DNA of 64,000 nucleotides, from contig NZ_AP019810.1 in NCBI RefSeq assembly GCF_013394305.1, positions 248,001 through 312,000 of the forward strand. The letters are read 5' to 3'. Below are positions 33,773 to 64,000 of the stretch, piece by piece. The notes below the pieces were generated by a model. It was not told the origin of the DNA. It saw only the letters and a list, made by a program, of their open reading frames with translations, and ran no database searches. The DNA comes from Enterococcus mundtii (GTDB lineage: Bacteria > Bacillota > Bacilli > Lactobacillales > Enterococcaceae). The position numbers were made by a program, and so were the translations under genes. Numbering within the stretch: the stretch's first letter is position 1; every line of letters starts with the position of its first letter.

Positions 33773-34954
33773 TCAGTCGTTTATCAAGTCCTTATCCAAT
33801 AAAAACCGTTCGAAGACATTATTTCCCAAAAAAGTTCCTTTTTGTGTCAAATATACTCGGTCTTCTTCATTCACTAACAACTCTTCTGCTACTAACTCAT
33901 CCAGGACAGATTGATACAACGATTCAATCGATCGACCATAACGCTGTAAAAAGTGTTGCCTCTCAATGCCCACCTTTTTTCTTAAACCAAGAAACATCTC
34001 TTCCTCAATTTGATTTTTACGAGATAACTCTTCACGTTCTAATACCGGTAGCTCACCTTCACGTAACGGACGCAAATAATGTTGGATCGGACCTTTATTT
34101 CGATATCGCGTATGATCCAAATAGCCACTTGCCCCTGCGCCAAAACCGAAATAGTGATCATTATTCCAATACATCAAATTGTGTTGCGATTCATGACCAG
34201 CTAAACCAAAGTTACTGATCTCATATTGATGACGTTGGTGTTTTTCCATCGCCGCAATCGTTTCTTCAAACATCCGTGTCTCCGTCTCTTGATCTGGCAA
34301 TTGCAGCCGACCTTGTCGAACCCAATTCATAAACATCGTTTTATTCTCTAAAATCAATGAATAAAGAGAATAATGAGGTAAGTCTAAGGCTAATGCCCGC
34401 TCCAAAGTATCAAGATAGCCTTCTAACGTCTGCCCAGGTAACGCATAGATCAAATCAATGCTGACATTTGAAAAATTTTCCGCCTCTAAAAATCGCATTG
34501 TTTCATAGACATCTTCCGCCGTATGTTTTCGACCAATTTTCTTTAATAAGCGATTATCAAAGGTCTGGACCCCCATCGATAAACGATTGACCCCATAATT
34601 CTTCATTACTTGTAGCTTTTCCCTGGTCAAATCACCAGGATTCGCTTCCACCGTAAACTCTTTTCCTTCATTAAAAGGTAAGATCTCTCTGGCACCAGAC
34701 AATAGTCGATCGAGCTGCTTAGCCGATAAAGAAGTCGGCGTTCCACCACCAACATACAGCGTCTCCAATTCATTCACCGGACGACGCTCTATCATGATCG
34801 CCATTTCCTTTAGTAGCATTTCGACATACTCATCCACTGGTTGACCTTCTAGAAACACTTTATTGAAGTCACAGTAATAACAAATATGTTCGCAAAATGG
34901 GATATGGATATACGCAGAAACCTTATGTTCTACGGATTTGTTTGTTTCTTTCAT
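33773..34954 (-). CDS. hemW: HemW (radical SAM, coproporphyrinogen III oxidase-like)
   Basis: 393 residues. The radical-SAM cluster motif is C-EHI-C-YY-C in YIHIPFCEHICYYCDFNK, followed by YVGGGTPTSL and EANPGDLT. HemW-type proteins bind and hand over heme rather than oxidise coproporphyrinogen. It normally stands just upstream of hrcA in Firmicutes, as here. Its own upstream region is cut short by the mobile element that begins within 90 bases of its start. Confidence 0.92.
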   Translation of the reverse strand: MKETNKSVEHKVSAYIHIPFCEHICYYCDFNKVFLEGQPVDEYVEMLLKEMAIMIERRPVNELETLYVGGGTPTSLSAKQLDRLLSGAREILPFNEGKEFTVEANPGDLTREKLQVMKNYGVNRLSMGVQTFDNRLLKKIGRKHTAEDVYETMRFLEAENFSNVSIDLIYALPGQTLEGYLDTLERALALDLPHYSLYSLILENKTMFMNWVRQGRLQLPDQETETRMFEETIAAMEKHQRHQYEISNFGLAGHESQHNLMYWNNDHYFGFGAGASGYLDHTRYRNKGPIQHYLRPLREGELPVLEREELSRKNQIEEEMFLGLRKKVGIERQHFLQRYGRSIESLYQSVLDELVAEELLVNEEDRVYLTQKGTFLGNNVFERFLLDKDLIND

Positions 34955-35043
34955 TGTTTTTTCTTTCTCCTTACGTCAAAAGTCGTACCGCTTTTCGACC
35001 ACTCTTATATACGCATACTAAACGTATTTAACAAACAAATCCA
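34955..35043. other. Probable left junction (attL) of the ICE
   Basis: The 89 bases between the hemW start and the integrase stop must contain the chromosome/ICE boundary if the ICE begins with its integrase. The repeat that defines att cannot be found because the right end lies beyond the window. Confidence 0.45.
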
Positions 35044-36426
35044 CTAAAAAATCCAAGAATCGACTTCTTGGATCACTTTTTCTTTCGTTGCGCTGGACAC
35101 TTGGTTGTAAATTTCCAGTGTTGTTTTCATATTGGAATGACCAACACGATCCATGATGGCTTTGATTGGGACGCCAGCTTCAGCCAAGAGAGAAATATGT
35201 GTGTAGCGAAAAGTATGAGTAGTAACGTGCTTATTAAACGCAGGATATTTTTCTCTTAAGATATCTTTCACACATTTCACTGGTTTTTTATTGCTACCAC
35301 GTCCATTCATAAACTCATTAAATGAATGATAAACGACTGGCGTACCATTTTGTGTTTGGAAAATCGTAGTTGAGAAAAGAAATTGTTCAGAAGCCCTCAC
35401 TTTTTTGTGATAAGAAGTCTGGTTCTTTCGCTGATACGTCTTTATAAAAGTTCCTTTTTCTCTTTGTTTCATCTCTTTTTGTCTCGCTTCATTTAGTTGA
35501 ATCCTATTTCTAATAATCGCAAGCGAACGATCATCCAAATCGATTTCTCGAATGGAGGAAATAGTCTTTGGCGGATTGCGTATGTATTGCTCAATCGTTC
35601 TACAAGCTGCCACTACGCCTTCATCAATCACTAACTTCTTTGACTGAAAATCCACTTTCTCAATTGTCAACGCACTTAATTCACCAATCCTTAAGCCGTT
35701 TCGAATCAAAAATTCCGCCATGTCTAAGTACAGTTTTCCCATCTTATTGATTTCATGATTACTTTCATATTTCTCATCGATTACTTGGAAAAGAGTACGG
35801 ATCTCCTCTTTCTCTAGAAACTTCTTTTTTCTGCGTTGAATCGCTAATATTTTTCGGTCATTGGGGATTCTCAAAATAACCTTATTCAAATCGAATAAGA
35901 CTAAATCATGCCGATAACCATAAGCGAGAATTTGTTTAAGTAAAGAACGAATCTTTTCTAATGTTGCTTTTTCTAGAAGCGTTTTGCTTTGTTTTGAGCG
36001 GATCGCTAAGATATCTGCCCAAGCCCCTTCCACGAACAAAGGAGTCAGTTGTTGCAGTCGCAGATTATTAGCAAAATGTGGTTGAAGGTATCGGCGAAGA
36101 ATTTCTTTTTGATAATGGACGGTTGTTTGACGTACCGTGGGCGACCAAGCTTTTAACCAAAGTGACGATAATTCACCAAACGTTTCACAATAGTTCGCAT
36201 CAGCAAACATCGAATATTTTTTGAACTCTTTTCCAATCTGTTCCTTCAGATAGCGTAATGCTTGTTTTTCACTTTTAAATCCTTTTGCTTTCCAGTTAAC
36301 ACTTTTCTTTCGCGTCTTTTCTTTGACTGGATCATAATAAACTTGAAATGTACGTAAATATTTCTTCTTATCAACCGTAGTATATGAACTTCGAAGATAC
36401 TGTTTGAACTCTGACGGCCGCAGCAA
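35044..36426 (-). CDS. int: Tyrosine integrase of the ICE
   Basis: 460 residues of the phage integrase family. The N-terminal arm-binding region (residues 1-70, KKYLRTFQVYYDPVKEKTRKK) is followed by the SAM-like core-binding domain and the catalytic domain with Arg in RNGLRIGELSAL, the HxxR box HTFRYTHISLLAEAGV, a following GH, and the nucleophile Tyr in TTLEIYNQVSS. It inserts and excises the element. No excisionase gene is seen next to it, unlike Tn916. Confidence 0.92.
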   Translation of the reverse strand: MLRPSEFKQYLRSSYTTVDKKKYLRTFQVYYDPVKEKTRKKSVNWKAKGFKSEKQALRYLKEQIGKEFKKYSMFADANYCETFGELSSLWLKAWSPTVRQTTVHYQKEILRRYLQPHFANNLRLQQLTPLFVEGAWADILAIRSKQSKTLLEKATLEKIRSLLKQILAYGYRHDLVLFDLNKVILRIPNDRKILAIQRRKKKFLEKEEIRTLFQVIDEKYESNHEINKMGKLYLDMAEFLIRNGLRIGELSALTIEKVDFQSKKLVIDEGVVAACRTIEQYIRNPPKTISSIREIDLDDRSLAIIRNRIQLNEARQKEMKQREKGTFIKTYQRKNQTSYHKKVRASEQFLFSTTIFQTQNGTPVVYHSFNEFMNGRGSNKKPVKCVKDILREKYPAFNKHVTTHTFRYTHISLLAEAGVPIKAIMDRVGHSNMKTTLEIYNQVSSATKEKVIQEVDSWIF

Positions 36427-36545: not shown

Positions 36546-38546
36546 TTAAGCATCTATACCTAACACCAGTTCTTCATTTATTTTTACAATGTAAAAAACT
36601 AAAATAATTAATATATAGAAATAATCTTCTTCATCTCCCTTAATAATAGATCCATGAGAATATTTATTTCTCAATCCGAGTGCGTTATCAAACATAGAAT
36701 TATTTAGGATGTAATTTAGATAGTCAACTTCAGGTTTAGCAAAAAGTGTAGTTTCATTAACTAATAAATCTTCCTTTAACATCTCATCTATTTCTTTTTG
36801 TAGTTCGTTTAATTCCTTTTTCCTACTTAACTTTTGAATTCCATGATGATAGTGAATAACACCATATTTATAAAGAACTGAAAATATTAAAACCCTAATT
36901 ACTTGTTTTTCTGTCATATATATTTCTTCATCCTGATTTACAGAGATAATTCTATTATTAACTAAAAAATCAATATGCAATTGTTGATAATTACGGTACA
37001 TACATTTTTTTATCTTATTCTCATTAATTAGCTGTACAAAACTATGTGCATTAAATTCTTTATCAATATATATTAAATCTGATTGATCCGAGAATAACAA
37101 ATGTAAGATTTTTTGTATATTTTGTTTTTTTTCATTTATATAGATATATTTTTTATCTAACAAACTTTTTAGAGAACTGAGAACTGGTGTTGATTCTAAC
37201 TCAAATAACTCTCTATCTATTTCCTTCTCCTCAGTATATAATTTCCATTGCTTCCTTATTTGTTCTTCTAAAGTCACTAAATTTTTAATTTGAATGTTTA
37301 GTTTTTGTGTTTCATCAGCAAAATCTAAAGGTAGCCAATCTACATTAAAATTTTCCTTACTGTAAGCTGAAAAGAAAAAAACTAGTAAATCTTCTATTCT
37401 TGAACCAGTAATCTCCTTTATTCTTTCTTGAAATACTTTGAATGTTAGTAAAATCAAATAATTCTTATTAATAAAGTAAGGGGTAAGTTCATAAGATTTT
37501 TTTGTATAAACCCCTGAGAAAACTCTACTAAAAGTTGAACTTTCCCAATTAGGAAAACTGGGTAAATTAAAAATCCAGTTATCTGTAAAAAAATACTCAA
37601 AATACATCATGTACTCTAGTAGATTCTCTGGATAATTTTCTTTTTCTAGATATTTCAAGTCAACTAAAGTCTTAAAACCTAGTTCAGATTTGTCATAATT
37701 TTCTTTATCAATGTATACTCCAAAACTATACCCAATCCCTCTATTTATTGAAGTACTCTCTTCGCTGAACAGCTCTTCTTCCATTTCTTTGCTTCTTTTT
37801 CTAGCTTTTAGTTGTAGTTTTGCATCAATAGATAATTCTTTCAATCCCATAATTCCATCGCCTATTAACCGCGTATAGTTCAAATTCACGAATTCATATC
37901 CAATATATAGTTCACAGAATCTATACATTTCATCTTTAGTAATATTACTTGGAATAAAATAACCGGGCCTGTCTGAAGTATAATTGCTTAAAAGCAATTC
38001 AAAATTACTAGGGTCTTTCAAAAAATATTTTTTTATTATTAGAGGAAATTCATTCATAAAATATTGACTTTTTAAAAAGTGAGAAATTGGGATTGAATAG
38101 TTTTGTATACATCCATCGAAATCATCCTCACTAATTTTTTCATTTAACTTATATTTTTCAAAACATTCTAAAAAATCGTCTATAAATAAAATCTGACTAT
38201 ATTTGTCTAACTCTATTCTTTCTGATTTTTTTATTATATTTTTTTCCACTTCTTCTGGAGAAAAGAAGTATTCAAAACTCTGTAATATATCATCTTTAGA
38301 TAATTTATTAAAAAAAATAGATATTGACTTATTAATTGCACTCACAGCTTTTTTTACATCTTCTTCGGTTAAAGAACTAGGATAAACTTTATATTTTAAA
38401 AATTTCAAAACATTGTAAATTTCTAAAATATCTAATAAGTTATCCACTTCTACTTCCCCAGAATTTTCTATAATATTTTTTATTCTTTCAAAATGGGAAG
38501 AGGTTGATAAATCTGATAAACCATAAAACTTAACTCGTTCCATCAT
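36546..38546 (-). CDS. Unknown 666-residue protein with a C-terminal HEPN-type RxxxxH motif
   Basis: No family recognised for most of the protein. The C-terminus reads ALGLRNKYSHGS, with Arg626 and His631 in the Rx4H pattern of HEPN ribonuclease domains, followed by a hydrophobic helix as in DUF4209- and Apea-like HEPN proteins. The rest is a long alpha-helical Lys/Glu-rich region without transmembrane segments or a signal peptide. The gene is more AT-rich than the conjugation genes, stands alone between the integrase and the transfer operon, and looks like later-acquired cargo. Abortive-infection or other defence activity is a reasonable guess; a non-catalytic HEPN scaffold is also possible. 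Confidence 0.6.
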   Translation of the reverse strand: MMERVKFYGLSDLSTSSHFERIKNIIENSGEVEVDNLLDILEIYNVLKFLKYKVYPSSLTEEDVKKAVSAINKSISIFFNKLSKDDILQSFEYFFSPEEVEKNIIKKSERIELDKYSQILFIDDFLECFEKYKLNEKISEDDFDGCIQNYSIPISHFLKSQYFMNEFPLIIKKYFLKDPSNFELLLSNYTSDRPGYFIPSNITKDEMYRFCELYIGYEFVNLNYTRLIGDGIMGLKELSIDAKLQLKARKRSKEMEEELFSEESTSINRGIGYSFGVYIDKENYDKSELGFKTLVDLKYLEKENYPENLLEYMMYFEYFFTDNWIFNLPSFPNWESSTFSRVFSGVYTKKSYELTPYFINKNYLILLTFKVFQERIKEITGSRIEDLLVFFFSAYSKENFNVDWLPLDFADETQKLNIQIKNLVTLEEQIRKQWKLYTEEKEIDRELFELESTPVLSSLKSLLDKKYIYINEKKQNIQKILHLLFSDQSDLIYIDKEFNAHSFVQLINENKIKKCMYRNYQQLHIDFLVNNRIISVNQDEEIYMTEKQVIRVLIFSVLYKYGVIHYHHGIQKLSRKKELNELQKEIDEMLKEDLLVNETTLFAKPEVDYLNYILNNSMFDNALGLRNKYSHGSIIKGDEEDYFYILIILVFYIVKINEELVLGIDA

Positions 38547-57141: not shown

Positions 57142-57172
57142 GCAGCCCTTTGTGGCTGCTTTTTTTATGTCA
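57142..57172 (+). terminator. Rho-independent-type hairpin
   Basis: GCAGCC-CTTTGT-GGCTGC followed by six T on the plus strand, between the FtsK-like gene and hepT. Both neighbours are on the minus strand, so its function is unclear. Confidence 0.5.
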
Positions 57173-57521
57173 TTCTTACCAATTGTTTTATTTTTAAACG
57201 GCAAAATGTCGCATAGACAGGTATAAATACCGTCGCAAATTCCCATACTGTCCGCTCATTTACATTACTATAAGCGTGTGCAAATAAATTGCGAATGTAT
57301 TTAAGGCTCCGCCAGTCTACCTCCTTACTCGTTTCTTCTTTAAATGTATCGGATAACTTATTAGACATTTCCCCCACTTGCATCAAAGACATACTGACTG
57401 CATGAAAAAACACTCGATCATTGATAAAAACTTCGTAGTTTCTATCAAAACGATTGAGTGTTTGCTCGATGTCATCACAATAAGTCAATGATCCATATAA
57501 AATACGCAAATCTGCTTTCAT
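57165..57521 (-). CDS. hepT: HepT-like toxin (HEPN ribonuclease)
   Basis: 118 residues from ATG 57521; a TTG four codons earlier, inside the antitoxin gene, is an alternative. The Rx4HxY motif is R77-NLFA-H82-A-Y84 in IRNLFAHAYSN, characteristic of HepT. In studied systems HepT is an RNase, and its motif tyrosine is modified by the partner MntA. The start overlaps or abuts the MntA stop, so the genes are coupled. It helps keep the ICE in the cell or protects against phage. Confidence 0.88.
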   Translation of the reverse strand: MKADLRILYGSLTYCDDIEQTLNRFDRNYEVFINDRVFFHAVSMSLMQVGEMSNKLSDTFKEETSKEVDWRSLKYIRNLFAHAYSNVNERTVWEFATVFIPVYATFCRLKIKQLVRMT

Positions 57522-57522
57522 T

Positions 57523-57849
57523 TTATTTTTCAAATATTTTTAATCGCTCCTCCATTACTTGTTTTGTAAAATTCTTTTGAATTGTTGTTGGATTTGTATT
57601 TGCTAGTGCTTCAATCTCTACTAGATCGATCTCATGATCCACCGCTTTTTTTAACTCTTCAAAGAAGTCACTATAGACTAACCAACGATATTCTTCTGGC
57701 ATGCCTTCCGTTCCTACCAAGAAATCAATATCACTTTCATTGGTCGCTTCATTCCTTGCGTATGATCCAAAAATATAAACGACTGGAACTTCGTATTTTT
57801 CAGCAACAGGCTTTACACGCTGCTCGATTTCTTTTACCGTCAATACCAT
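57523..57849 (-). CDS. mntA: MntA-like antitoxin (minimal nucleotidyltransferase)
   Basis: 108 residues. Nucleotidyltransferase motif G28-S29-YARNEATNES-D40-I-D42 followed by FLVGTEGMP. MntA adds AMP to the HepT tyrosine and thereby silences it (established for the family, inferred here). It precedes hepT, the usual antitoxin-first order. AGGAGTG-like sequence lies upstream of ATG 57849. Confidence 0.88.
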   Translation of the reverse strand: MVLTVKEIEQRVKPVAEKYEVPVVYIFGSYARNEATNESDIDFLVGTEGMPEEYRWLVYSDFFEELKKAVDHEIDLVEIEALANTNPTTIQKNFTKQVMEERLKIFEK

Positions 57850-58028
57850 CTTATAGCACTCCTTTCACGTTCTATCTTTGATTTCATTATATGGTATTGT
57901 ATACGTTCAGGCAATTTTCTGTTTTTAGTAATAGCTAAAGAGTAAACTCACTTATTTGCAAAAGTTCATCTTTTGAAATTTTATTTTTGATATAATTATC
58001 TCAAATAATTATATAAGGAGTTATGTCT

Positions 58029-58580
58029 ATGAATACTGAATTAATGAATGTTTTTTTATTAGCTGTAAATTTAATATGGGTAGCCTACAATACTAATAAA
58101 ATTAGAATTATCGAAGCAAACCAAAAATTTGCTCCTATTTTGATCGATGAGATTTTCAAACCATATTATTTGAAAATTGAGTGTCATTTATTTATAGCTA
58201 TTACTGAGGATAATAAAGAACTGATATCTTCCAATCTAATAGAATTGTATGATCAATTAAAAAATAAAAATTTACTTTTTTACATATCTGATAGATTATT
58301 AGTATCGTTGGAAGAAACAATTGATATCTCTAAATCAAGTTACTTTGATAAAAAAGAGTTTAATAAGAAGTATCAACAATTTTCTAGAGATTATTATTTT
58401 GAATTAAATAAATTTAGAAAAATAGTTGGATTAAGAAATAGAACACCTTATTTTAGAATTCACCATAATTTATACAAATATAAGATTCAATGGCTGGTTA
58501 TAAAGTATTCATATTTATTACCAATTACAATAATTATAACCCTATACTTATATTACTTTTATAATACATTTCTTAAATAG
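58029..58580 (+). CDS. Unknown membrane protein, module copy A
   Basis: 183 residues from ATG 58029, eight bases after AAGGAG; the ATG at 58023 is only two bases from it. An N-terminal hydrophobic segment (ELMNVFLLAVNLIWVAY), a cytoplasmic-looking middle with NLLFYISDRLL and LRNRTPYFRIHHNLYKYKIQ, and a C-terminal membrane segment (LPITIIITLYLYYFY). Clear homologue of the protein at 59587-60138 but of no family I recognise. It points against the transfer operon and converges on a small membrane-protein gene. Confidence 0.65.
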   Translation: MNTELMNVFLLAVNLIWVAYNTNKIRIIEANQKFAPILIDEIFKPYYLKIECHLFIAITEDNKELISSNLIELYDQLKNKNLLFYISDRLLVSLEETIDISKSSYFDKKEFNKKYQQFSRDYYFELNKFRKIVGLRNRTPYFRIHHNLYKYKIQWLVIKYSYLLPITIIITLYLYYFYNTFLK

Positions 58581-59586: not shown

Positions 59587-60138
59587 ATGGATATTACTGT
59601 CTTAAATTTCATTTTTGGAACATTCAATGTATTTTGGGGAATCTACAATTCTAAGAAGATGCACTCACTCTCAATTGTTCAAAGCTTCTCTTCTAACCTA
59701 ATAGAAAAAATTTTTATTCCCTTTTACAAAAATATTGAGTGTAATCTATTTGTAAATGTCACATCAGATAATAGAAAAGAAATTATTCGAAACTTATCTG
59801 AGTTGTACAATACATTAAATAATGAAAATTTATTGTTCTATATTTCTGATTCCTTGTTGATACCTTTAGAAAAGCTAACACAACAAAACAGAAAACCTTT
59901 AACTTCAAAAGAAATCAATAAAATATATCAGGACTTTTCTAAAAATTATTATATTGAGTTAAACCGAACAAGAAAAACTGTAGGGCTTAAACCTCGAACT
60001 CCAAACTTTAGAGTCCATCACAAATTATATCGATTTAAAATTCAGAATTTCTTAGTTGCATATGCGGAATATATTTTTGTTATAGCATATTTGGTTATAC
60101 AATTATTCCTTATATTTTATTCTTTATTTAAGAAGTAG
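59587..60138 (+). CDS. Unknown membrane protein, module copy B
   Basis: 183 residues (GAGGTG seven bases before ATG 59587). Same length and layout as copy A: NFIFGTFNVFWGIY at the start, IECNLFVNVTSDNRKEI, NLLFYISDSLLIPLEK, LKPRTPNFRVHHKLYRFKIQ, and a C-terminal membrane segment (IFVIAYLVIQLFLIFYS). Identity with copy A is high in the middle and lower at the ends, so these are old paralogues rather than a recent duplication. Function unknown. Confidence 0.65.
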   Translation: MDITVLNFIFGTFNVFWGIYNSKKMHSLSIVQSFSSNLIEKIFIPFYKNIECNLFVNVTSDNRKEIIRNLSELYNTLNNENLLFYISDSLLIPLEKLTQQNRKPLTSKEINKIYQDFSKNYYIELNRTRKTVGLKPRTPNFRVHHKLYRFKIQNFLVAYAEYIFVIAYLVIQLFLIFYSLFKK

Positions 60139-62160: not shown

Positions 62161-62592
62161 TTGGAAAAACTAGCTGAAAGATTAACTCTTCTGAGAGAAG
62201 AAAAAGAGTGGACAAAAACTTATGTAGCTAAGCAATTAAACCTGAATAATTTGGGAACTTATGCTAACTGGGAATATGGTACTAGAGAACCTGATAATGA
62301 AATGCTTACTAAGATAGCTTCTTTATACAATGTTTCTACAGATTATTTGCTAGGTCGGAGTGAGAAACGTCATTATTATGATTTAACTAAAAAAGACGAG
62401 AAAGATATCGCTACAGAAATAGAAAACATGATTGCTGATTTAAAAAATGCTGATGCTTTTGCATACTCAAAAGAAGCATCTGATATTGACAGAGAGACCC
62501 ATGAATTACTTATTGCTTCTTTAGAGAACTCGCTTAGAATAGCAAAAATAGAAGCTAAAAAACGATTTACTCCAAAAAAATATAGAAATTAA
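62161..62592 (+). CDS. ImmR-like Cro/CI-family repressor of the ICE
   Basis: 143 residues from a TTG, nine bases after GGGGGAGG. HTH_3 domain in the first 65 residues (LREEKEWTKTYVAKQLNLNNLGTYANWEYGTREPDNEMLTKIASLYNVSTDYLLGR, seen as the usual five helices). The C-terminal half is helical. It faces the transfer operon and is followed by an ImmA-like protease, the layout of ICEBs1 immR-immA, where the repressor blocks excision and transfer until cleaved. Confidence 0.88.
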   Translation: MEKLAERLTLLREEKEWTKTYVAKQLNLNNLGTYANWEYGTREPDNEMLTKIASLYNVSTDYLLGRSEKRHYYDLTKKDEKDIATEIENMIADLKNADAFAYSKEASDIDRETHELLIASLENSLRIAKIEAKKRFTPKKYRN

Positions 62593-62604: not shown

Positions 62605-63048
62605 ATGTTTATTCCACATATCCATAAAAAAATAAACTCGCTCATTCATGTTCATGAAACAAGAAATCCCTTCAAGATTGCTAGGGATAAAAAAATTATC
62701 GTTATCGAGGAAGAACTTGGTGAAATTTTTGGCTATTATAATCGTATAAAAAGAATCCAATTTATCCATATAAATACTTCTCTACCTAATGATATGAAAC
62801 TTTATATTTGCTGCCATGAGCTGGGTCATTGTATTTTTCATCCAAATGAAAATACACCCCAACTTTCATCCACATCTATCATTTCTGAAATGAAAGTAGA
62901 AAAAGAAGCAAATTATTTTGCTACTAATTTAATCATTGATGGTAGCCATAAAGAGTTACATTTACCTAGCAAGTACGAAATATTGGATTATTACGGCTTA
63001 CCTTGGTATCTAGACTGCTATTTGCCAGCAGAAATAGCAGTCATGTAA
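62605..63048 (+). CDS. ImmA/IrrE-family metalloprotease
   Basis: 147 residues with zinc motif H71-ELG-H75 in YICCHELGHCIFHP and a downstream Glu in VEKEANYFATNLI. In ICEBs1 ImmA cleaves ImmR when a DNA-damage or cell-sensing signal activates it, releasing the transfer operon. It lies 12 bases after the repressor gene. Confidence 0.9.
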   Translation: MFIPHIHKKINSLIHVHETRNPFKIARDKKIIVIEEELGEIFGYYNRIKRIQFIHINTSLPNDMKLYICCHELGHCIFHPNENTPQLSSTSIISEMKVEKEANYFATNLIIDGSHKELHLPSKYEILDYYGLPWYLDCYLPAEIAVM

Positions 63049-63079
63049 TTATTCTAACAGTACACACGGAGGTATTCCA

Positions 63080-63691
63080 TTGACACAAGATTATTATGAA
63101 CTTTGTCTAAATTTTTTAAAAGGCGAGCCAGAAAAATACTCTACAGATGAGTTCATTCAGAAACTATTTTTCTTATATCCTAGTTTGAAAGTTAATGTAG
63201 ATTTGTTACACAAAATTACAAGCCAAATAAGTATTACTTTAAATATTCCCTATCATGATATAAAAGTTATTGGTTCAAGTCATACTGGTTTTAGCTTTAT
63301 AGATAAAGATAAAAAAGGTACAGTAAAATTTTATGATTCAACAGCACCATCAGATATTGATATAGCAATCATCAATGATTCAATTTTTATAGATATTTTA
63401 GAAAAAACTGTTATTAGAACTGAGAATTATTCAGATAATACAGCTTTTAAAAACGCTCATTTATCGCAATATTTTAAAAAAAATATACCTTCAGGTTTTA
63501 TCAGACCCGATTCCATTGGTTGCGAAGTTACTAGGGAAAAATGGGTACGTTTTTTTTCTGACTTATCTAGCGAACATGATTTAAAGATTTCTGGAGCCAT
63601 ATATTTAAATGAAACTTTCTTTATTAAAAGACTAAAAAAACAAATCGAAACTTTCCAAAATATCGAGGAGGTACAAAATGGAATTAAATGA
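63080..63691 (+). CDS. Nucleotidyltransferase-fold protein, partner of a DUF262 protein
   Basis: 203 residues from a TTG, seven bases after GGAGG. It resembles the Pol-beta/minimal nucleotidyltransferase fold: GS at residues 65-66 in VIGSSHTGFSF and the metal pair in P-SDIDIAII (Asp92, Asp94). The stretch between GS and DxD is longer than usual (about 25 residues), so it may be an atypical member. Its end overlaps the next gene by 14 bases, so the two proteins are made together. It sits directly after the ICE regulator pair, in a position often used by cargo. Confidence 0.7.
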   Translation: MTQDYYELCLNFLKGEPEKYSTDEFIQKLFFLYPSLKVNVDLLHKITSQISITLNIPYHDIKVIGSSHTGFSFIDKDKKGTVKFYDSTAPSDIDIAIINDSIFIDILEKTVIRTENYSDNTAFKNAHLSQYFKKNIPSGFIRPDSIGCEVTREKWVRFFSDLSSEHDLKISGAIYLNETFFIKRLKKQIETFQNIEEVQNGIK

Positions 63692-64000
63692 AAAATTTGA
63701 GATAAAGTCCGAAGCAATCGGTGAATTGTATAATAAAATGCAACGTAAAGAAATAATTTACGATCCTTATTATCAAAGAAAATTCGTATGGGAACCTAAG
63801 CATCAAGTAGAATTTATAAAAACAATATTATTAGGTTTGCCCTGTCCAGAAATATTCCTTGCAGATGGAAGTATAGATCTTGATACACATGTTAGGTATA
63901 CACATGTTATAGATGGACAACAAAGACTGAGAACTATAGAAAGATTTTTAAAAAATAAATTTAAGGTTGAAGATAAATTCTATAAAGATTTAGATAACGA
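63678..64000 (+). CDS. DUF262-domain protein (GmrSD/SspE-like), N-terminal part
   Basis: 107 residues visible; the gene runs off the window. GAGGAGG-like sequence lies nine bases before ATG 63678. The ParB-like DUF262 motif is D79-G-Q-Q-R83 in YTHVIDGQQRLRTIERF, and YDPYYQRKFVWEPKHQVEFIKTILLG is the usual first segment. DUF262 proteins include GmrSD type IV restriction enzymes and SspE, which act against phage or foreign DNA. Whether a nuclease (HNH/DUF1524) half follows cannot be seen here. Confidence 0.8.
   Translation, partial: MELNEKFEIKSEAIGELYNKMQRKEIIYDPYYQRKFVWEPKHQVEFIKTILLGLPCPEIFLADGSIDLDTHVRYTHVIDGQQRLRTIERFLKNKFKVEDKFYKDLDN

Follow-up and report, generated by a model that had tools for sequence, protein, structure and literature searches.

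The 64,000-nucleotide stretch of Enterococcus mundtii DNA analysed here (the window; contig G000:C1:248001-312000) ends in two overlapping genes, the first encoding a nucleotidyltransferase-fold protein and the second a protein of the DUF262 (GmrSD_N) family; sequence 3' of position 64000 was taken from the same contig. The first gene (63080..63691, + strand) is an open reading frame (ORF) with a TTG start, 6 bases downstream of the probable ribosome-binding site GGAGGT (63068..63073, +). Its 203-amino-acid product reads ...VIGSSHTGFS...SDIDIAII... and carries the motifs GS (residues 65-66) and SDID (residues 91-94). The DUF262 gene starts with ATG at 63678, overlapping the first gene by 14 bases, and its own probable ribosome-binding site, GAGGAGGT (63665..63672, +), lies 5 bases upstream of that start, within the 3' end of the first gene. 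The window covers 107 of the 389 amino acids of the DUF262 protein (63678..64000, +), and the frame is open throughout the remainder on the contig, as far as 64847. Upstream of the pair lie an ImmR-like helix-turn-helix (HTH) regulator gene (62161..62592, +; PF01381, E 2.9e-10) and an ImmA-like M78 metallopeptidase gene (62605..63048, +; PF06114, E 6.2e-11), the latter ending 31 bases before the first gene starts; the ImmR and ImmA labels are our assumption, taken from ICEBs1. A preliminary description of the locus had reported a GS...DxD protein overlapping a DGQQR-bearing DUF262 gene by 14 bases, right behind the regulators of an integrative and conjugative element, and both observations stand. 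It had also allowed that the DUF262 gene might prove to be broken, but the gene is complete, with 389 codons for amino acids.

The same description took the overlap to mean that the two genes form one functional unit, a view that failure of the pair to be conserved would have undermined. When used as a query against the order, the first protein was found in its own genome alone (1/296), and it found no relative in plasmids, phages or viral contigs. The DUF262 protein was found in 19/296 genomes, and in one of them (G208, whose contig corresponds in its genes to Enterococcus sp. 5H) a neighbouring gene is related to the first gene, though diverged from it; first-gene relatives surfaced only via such DUF262 neighbours. 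A two-row profile of the first gene detected it in 3/398 genomes of the phylum, and a 27-row profile detected the same 3/398, so the gene is rare. The Enterococcus sp. 5H relative, as a query, matched one plasmid record and no phage record, and a three-row profile matched nothing in viral contigs. Further loci came from plasmids (1 record), GTDB contigs (24 loci) and viral contigs (2 loci); as the peptide patterns for the scan of GTDB contigs came from a single branch of the family, it is this branch that is best sampled.

In all 30 loci examined, which come from Bacillota, Bacteroidota, Pseudomonadota and Thermodesulfobacteriota, a DUF262 gene directly follows the first gene on the same strand. 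This adjacency is not circular, because all loci other than ours and that of Enterococcus sp. 5H were recruited by the first protein alone. Among the 30, two encode the same proteins (L044 and L045), one has a first gene split into two ORFs (L049) and one has a partial first gene (L052). An overlap of 4-61 bases joins the two genes in 26 loci, its length being exactly 14 bases in 14 of the 30, and the remaining 4 loci have a gap of 1-4 bases instead. Distances among the nucleotidyltransferase-fold proteins track those among their DUF262 partners very closely (r = 0.977 over 26 pairs; Mantel p = 0.0001, 9999 permutations); L045 was left out of trees, distances and neighbour lists (L025 also of neighbour lists), L049 and L052 were left out of the nucleotidyltransferase alignments, and L043, whose DUF262 gene is cut by a contig end, was left out of the 26 pairs. 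The two genes are thus one conserved, co-diverging unit, which supports the view that they belong together. In quick trees with long branches, both proteins group our copy with that of G506 and a viral-contig copy (L053), and four proteobacterial pairs are nested within Bacteroidota, which suggests that the two genes were transferred together. Right behind the pair in L053 is a gene for a tyrosine recombinase. In Pseudoalteromonas sp. THAF3 (L025:5983-6842) the pair is preceded by a gene for a DUF3990 protein and a small hypothetical gene, which could be another toxin-antitoxin-like unit.

DNA polymerase beta-type nucleotidyltransferases are recognised by the motifs hG[GS] and [DE]h[DE], both of which the first protein has. 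Scans of Pfam, PADLOC and NCBIfam at E 1 left it without a match. G65, S66, D92 and D94 are invariant in 27/27 aligned proteins of the family. Past the DxD motif the 27-row alignment contains no invariant acid, and in the predicted model (mean pLDDT 78.6) the strand expected to carry the third catalytic acid has Asn (Ser171 in our protein), so that this acid seems, on alignment and model together, to have been replaced across the family. The predicted fold is nearest to minimal nucleotidyltransferases, with MNT antitoxins as the best of a set of weak matches, and PDB sequence searches returned chance matches alone. When the family was compared by hhalign with the window's own MntA, the SDID motif alone was aligned (E 0.043, probability 1.2%; HepT control 0.52), so the link to MntA rests on fold and motif. 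The resemblance to HepT-MntA systems lies in the minimal-nucleotidyltransferase type of predicted fold and the GS...DxD signature, whereas the partner here is a DUF262 protein and not a HEPN protein, no third catalytic acid can be identified, and the sequence link to MntA is weak. Identity as a CBASS-type cyclase was rejected, as the first protein and 5 relatives matched 0 PADLOC families at E 1.

The only Pfam match at E 1 over the full 389 amino acids of the DUF262 protein is PF03235 (GmrSD_N; E 1e-19), and no DUF1524, HNH or other nuclease domain was found at that threshold. The protein contains VIDGQQR, and DGQQR is kept in 28/28 DUF262 proteins linked to a nucleotidyltransferase-fold partner. 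As judged from the predicted model, which aligns to BrxU residues 1-420, its fold is ParB/Srx-like, as in BrxU and SspE, with DGQQR intact. One PADLOC REase_II model matches the N-terminal part alone (residues 29-153, E 4.6e-6). With the DUF262 protein as query, matches came from 890 plasmid records and 228 phage records; every one was below 60% identity, and none spanned 80% of the protein. GmrSD, BrxU and SspE share the DUF262 fold and DGQQR with our protein, but their DUF1524 nuclease domain was not found in it. Of the features that the preliminary description had advised looking for past 64000, a methylase gene is present, but HNH/DUF1524 was not found in the DUF262 protein; together with the presence of a methylase at just 4/30 loci, this means that NTP-stimulated (nucleoside triphosphate-stimulated) DNA cleavage, which that description had named for GmrSD, cannot be carried over to the pair.

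Other partners occur among the remaining DUF262 loci found in the order. Seven loci adjoin a HEPN-type gene (L007, L010, L011, L013, L014, L017 and L021), confirmed by Pfam (PF18735/PF18737) at L010, L011 and L014 and assigned by reading at the remaining four; six of the seven also have a methyltransferase-like gene, and an ATPase-like gene stands beside DUF262 at L009, L015 and L018 (both by reading). A tree was built from 40 DUF262 proteins of the short type, after dropping proteins of loci L006-L022 outside 250-450 amino acids (L008, L012, L015, L019 and L020). On it the 28 proteins linked to a nucleotidyltransferase-fold partner require one label change, a value as low as which was reached in 0/500 shuffles, although the branch that holds them has a support of only 36. 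D29, E58, Q81, Y116, W220 and R374 are each kept in at least 26/28 of these proteins and in at most 1/7 of those linked to HEPN. At the three positions that were compared in other DUF262 proteins, Gln81 is present in 5/5, Tyr116 in 3/5 and Arg374 in 0/5, so that R374 is the residue most indicative of adaptation to the partner.

These features bear on which of the two proteins is the active one. In an arrangement that we consider unlikely but worth weighing, it is the DUF262 protein that would be toxic or cut DNA, with the nucleotidyltransferase-fold protein as its nucleotide-binding regulator or antitoxin, as MntA is for HepT. The small gene comes first and overlaps the DUF262 gene, the third catalytic acid is apparently lost across the first-protein family, MNT antitoxins are its best fold matches, and W220 and R374, kept in the DUF262 protein when it is linked to a nucleotidyltransferase-fold protein and not when linked to HEPN, might make up an interface or a separate site. 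Earlier studies, according to PMC4619093, had also taken GmrS for both endonuclease and NTPase. Set against this are the failure to find a nuclease motif in our DUF262 protein, for which GmrSD_N is the sole Pfam match, and the division of labour in BrxU and SspE, where the DUF262 part is described as the NTPase and DUF1524 as the nuclease (PMC8565348, PMC10952713).

Menshen consists of NsnA, NsnB and NsnC, of which NsnB is an ATPase. Our DUF262 protein is of the NsnA type: the NsnA model (PDLC03877, E 3.8e-27, covering model positions 49-382 of 385) is the best PADLOC model for it and for 5/5 relatives tested. The partner here is different, being a nucleotidyltransferase-fold protein, and no NsnB match occurs at the locus. 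The NsnB model (PDLC03878) matches 7 times in the genome, each time away from the locus, and as it also matches in 14/14 control genomes it is unspecific. NsnC was not among the listed PADLOC matches of the three locus genes (for the methyltransferase, the best 25 of 62), no search having been aimed at it. Identity with Menshen was dropped on the absence of an NsnB match. PD-T4-2 and the MAE_28990-HEPN/ParB(DUF262)/methylase operons resemble our locus in having a DUF262 protein that is short (ours matches the PD-T4-2_A model at E 4.6e-13), a single small partner and, sometimes, a methyltransferase; in both, however, the partner is HEPN, located downstream in the sister loci, whereas ours has the nucleotidyltransferase fold and lies upstream. 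No HEPN match at E 1 was present in the first, M78, HTH, DUF262 or methyltransferase proteins. DUF262 occurs without DUF1524 in PD-T4-2, Menshen and Dazbog alike, paired with an OLD nuclease in Menshen and a PF18735 HEPN protein in PD-T4-2 (PMC10952713). Dazbog can be activated by phage methylases (PMC12409349), and its gene content is not given in the passages covered of PMC10286901, PMC12926258 and PMC11680222.

It is improbable, in our estimation, that the pair is simply a divergent form of a named DUF262 system such as Menshen or Dazbog. In favour of this, the NsnA model, which ranks first in PADLOC for our DUF262 protein and for 5 relatives, does span almost all of ours, and Dazbog too contains DUF262 (PMC10952713), with a partner gene that lies outside our comparison. 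Nevertheless, the locus lacks an NsnB match, the description of Menshen includes an OLD nuclease (PMC10952713), and 6/6 nucleotidyltransferase-fold proteins were without a PADLOC match at E 1; a model named for Dazbog was likewise absent among the PADLOC DUF262 matches, from a library not shown to contain one. The preliminary description knew of no named system with this pair, and neither PADLOC-DB nor the open-licence literature on DUF262 and nucleotidyltransferases yielded one; the passages covered of PMC12409362, PMC8565348, PMC13119452 and PMC3710099 do not describe it. Within the libraries searched, and with Dazbog outside the comparison, there is strong support for a conserved, mobile and uncatalogued two-gene DUF262 unit.

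Past the window, a C5 DNA methyltransferase gene (PF00145, E 2.6e-66) follows the pair and ends at 66222. It starts with TTG at 64873 or, more likely, ATG at 64918, which has TAGGAG 7 bases upstream, a better ribosome-binding site than that of the TTG, and accordingly it begins 25 or 70 bases 3' of the DUF262 gene. A terminator-like hairpin follows at 66270-66300; terminator-like sites numbered 9 where 2.2 were expected, and a promoter scan (38 sites against 32.8 expected) was uninformative. The methyltransferase gene (METHYLTRANSFERASE) is optional, being present in 4/30 pair loci, with short flanks at several loci. A methyltransferase gene beside the pair is what type II restriction-modification would share with our locus, if not with most others, and a reading in which the pair restricts and the C5 methyltransferase modifies is conceivable but has a low probability. 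The gene is directly downstream here and directly upstream at L050, L051 and L054, the DUF262-HEPN sister operons also carry methyltransferase-like genes (by reading), and the MAE_28990 HEPN gene shares an operon with genes for a ParB nuclease and a DNA methylase (PMC3710099). The scarcity of the gene among the 30 loci argues the other way, even allowing for short flanks, as does the absence of a visible nuclease domain in the DUF262 protein. Moreover, the three upstream methyltransferases are 39-49% identical to one another and ours is just 26-30% identical to them, so that the methyltransferase was probably acquired separately and recruited twice.

The locus belongs to a larger mobile structure. 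A 61-bp direct repeat, found by repeat search at 35002..35062 and, past the window end, at 67893-67953, probably marks the two ends of an integrative element some 33 kb long, the left copy being its probable left end and adjoining a hemW-like gene (33773-34954, named by reading). The element's tyrosine integrase, of 460 amino acids, is encoded at 35044..36426 (-; PF00589, E 4e-15 at G000:C1:283095-283823). From the ImmR/ImmA-type regulators to its right end, the element holds the pair and the methyltransferase gene, and the pair would be right-arm cargo. ImmA relatives occur in 30/106 genomes of the family. In the nine closest modules (L063-L071; ImmA 48-56% identical) the gene after ImmA mostly differs, only L065 and L066 being alike by reading, and the slot thus seems to take variable cargo. 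In one related ImmR-ImmA module (L070:1949-3028) it holds a 359-amino-acid gene that by reading resembles a restriction-type nuclease, which would fit a slot for defence cargo.

Several other genes of the element may be mentioned. It encodes a HepT-MntA type pair (57168-57849, -; HepT-like PF01934, Polbeta PF18765), and thus has both a classic HEPN/MNT module and the nucleotidyltransferase-DUF262 pair. Two paralogues of 185 and 183 amino acids (58023-58580 and 59587-60138, +), 43% identical and with hydrophobic C-terminal ends, had no family match above cut-off in Pfam, PADLOC and NCBIfam scans; encoded on the strand opposite to the adjoining conjugation-type genes, they are candidate accessory or defence genes. 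Adjoining the integrase gene, 36546-38546 (-) encodes a 666-amino-acid protein that by reading has a HEPN-type stretch, RNKYSHG, in its C-terminal part; a PDB search with it gave chance matches alone (E 0.13 and above), and it is possibly left-arm defence cargo. Further right, past the methyltransferase gene and short of the element's right end, is a gene for a Zeta-toxin-type P-loop kinase (66870-67544, equivalent to L002:6870-7544; -; PF06414, E 1.7e-45).

The surroundings of the pair elsewhere may also point towards defence. Ten neighbours, hand-picked by reading among the neighbours listed, were compared with PADLOC at 1e-5, and 9/10 matched, seven of them strongly (E below 1e-80); the picked neighbour at L030 had no match at that threshold. 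Strong defence-gene matches lie within 2 kb of the pair in at least 6/30 loci and comprise SIR2 and HerA (L040, with HerA directly behind SIR2), Drt8 (L027), RT_UG19 (L035), OloB (L046), a CBASS cyclase (L029) and a specificity subunit (L033), and at many other loci the neighbours read as housekeeping genes. Near and far neighbours (86 versus 52 proteins) matched 166 versus 22 PADLOC families at 1e-10. As this is a count of families swollen by methyltransferase models, which fill the list of the best 25 near-neighbour families (each matching 4/86 proteins), we claim no enrichment of defence genes near the pair. The defence-gene neighbourhood is suggestive and not a statistic.

Taken together, genomic context and kinship make a defence function for the pair likely. 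As a working model, which we find the most likely of the readings though with slightly less than even credence, we propose a rare, mobile two-gene defence unit in which a DUF262 NTPase switch controls the output of a nucleotidyltransferase-fold protein. The DUF262 protein would act as an NTP-dependent switch sensing phage DNA or the modification state of DNA, and once active it would turn on its partner, which might then move a nucleotide onto RNA or protein and so block the infected cell or the phage. The nucleotidyltransferase would thereby fill the place taken in sister systems by a HEPN RNase, an OLD-type nuclease or a DUF1524 nuclease, and the C5 methyltransferase of the present copy would be an accessory that may mark self DNA. 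A bolder proposal, more speculative and one that we put forward as a possibility, is that this is a new defence family combining a DUF262 switch with a minimal nucleotidyltransferase that has Asn or Ser in place of the third Asp, and that HEPN and MNT, the classic toxin-antitoxin partners, are separately interchangeable on one DUF262 sensor lineage. A strictly paired nucleotidyltransferase-fold partner as the output of DUF262 is not described in the literature passages covered. With its two genes in about 1.8 kb, the system is compact and well suited to asking whether DUF262 is a general NTP-driven sensor with interchangeable effectors.
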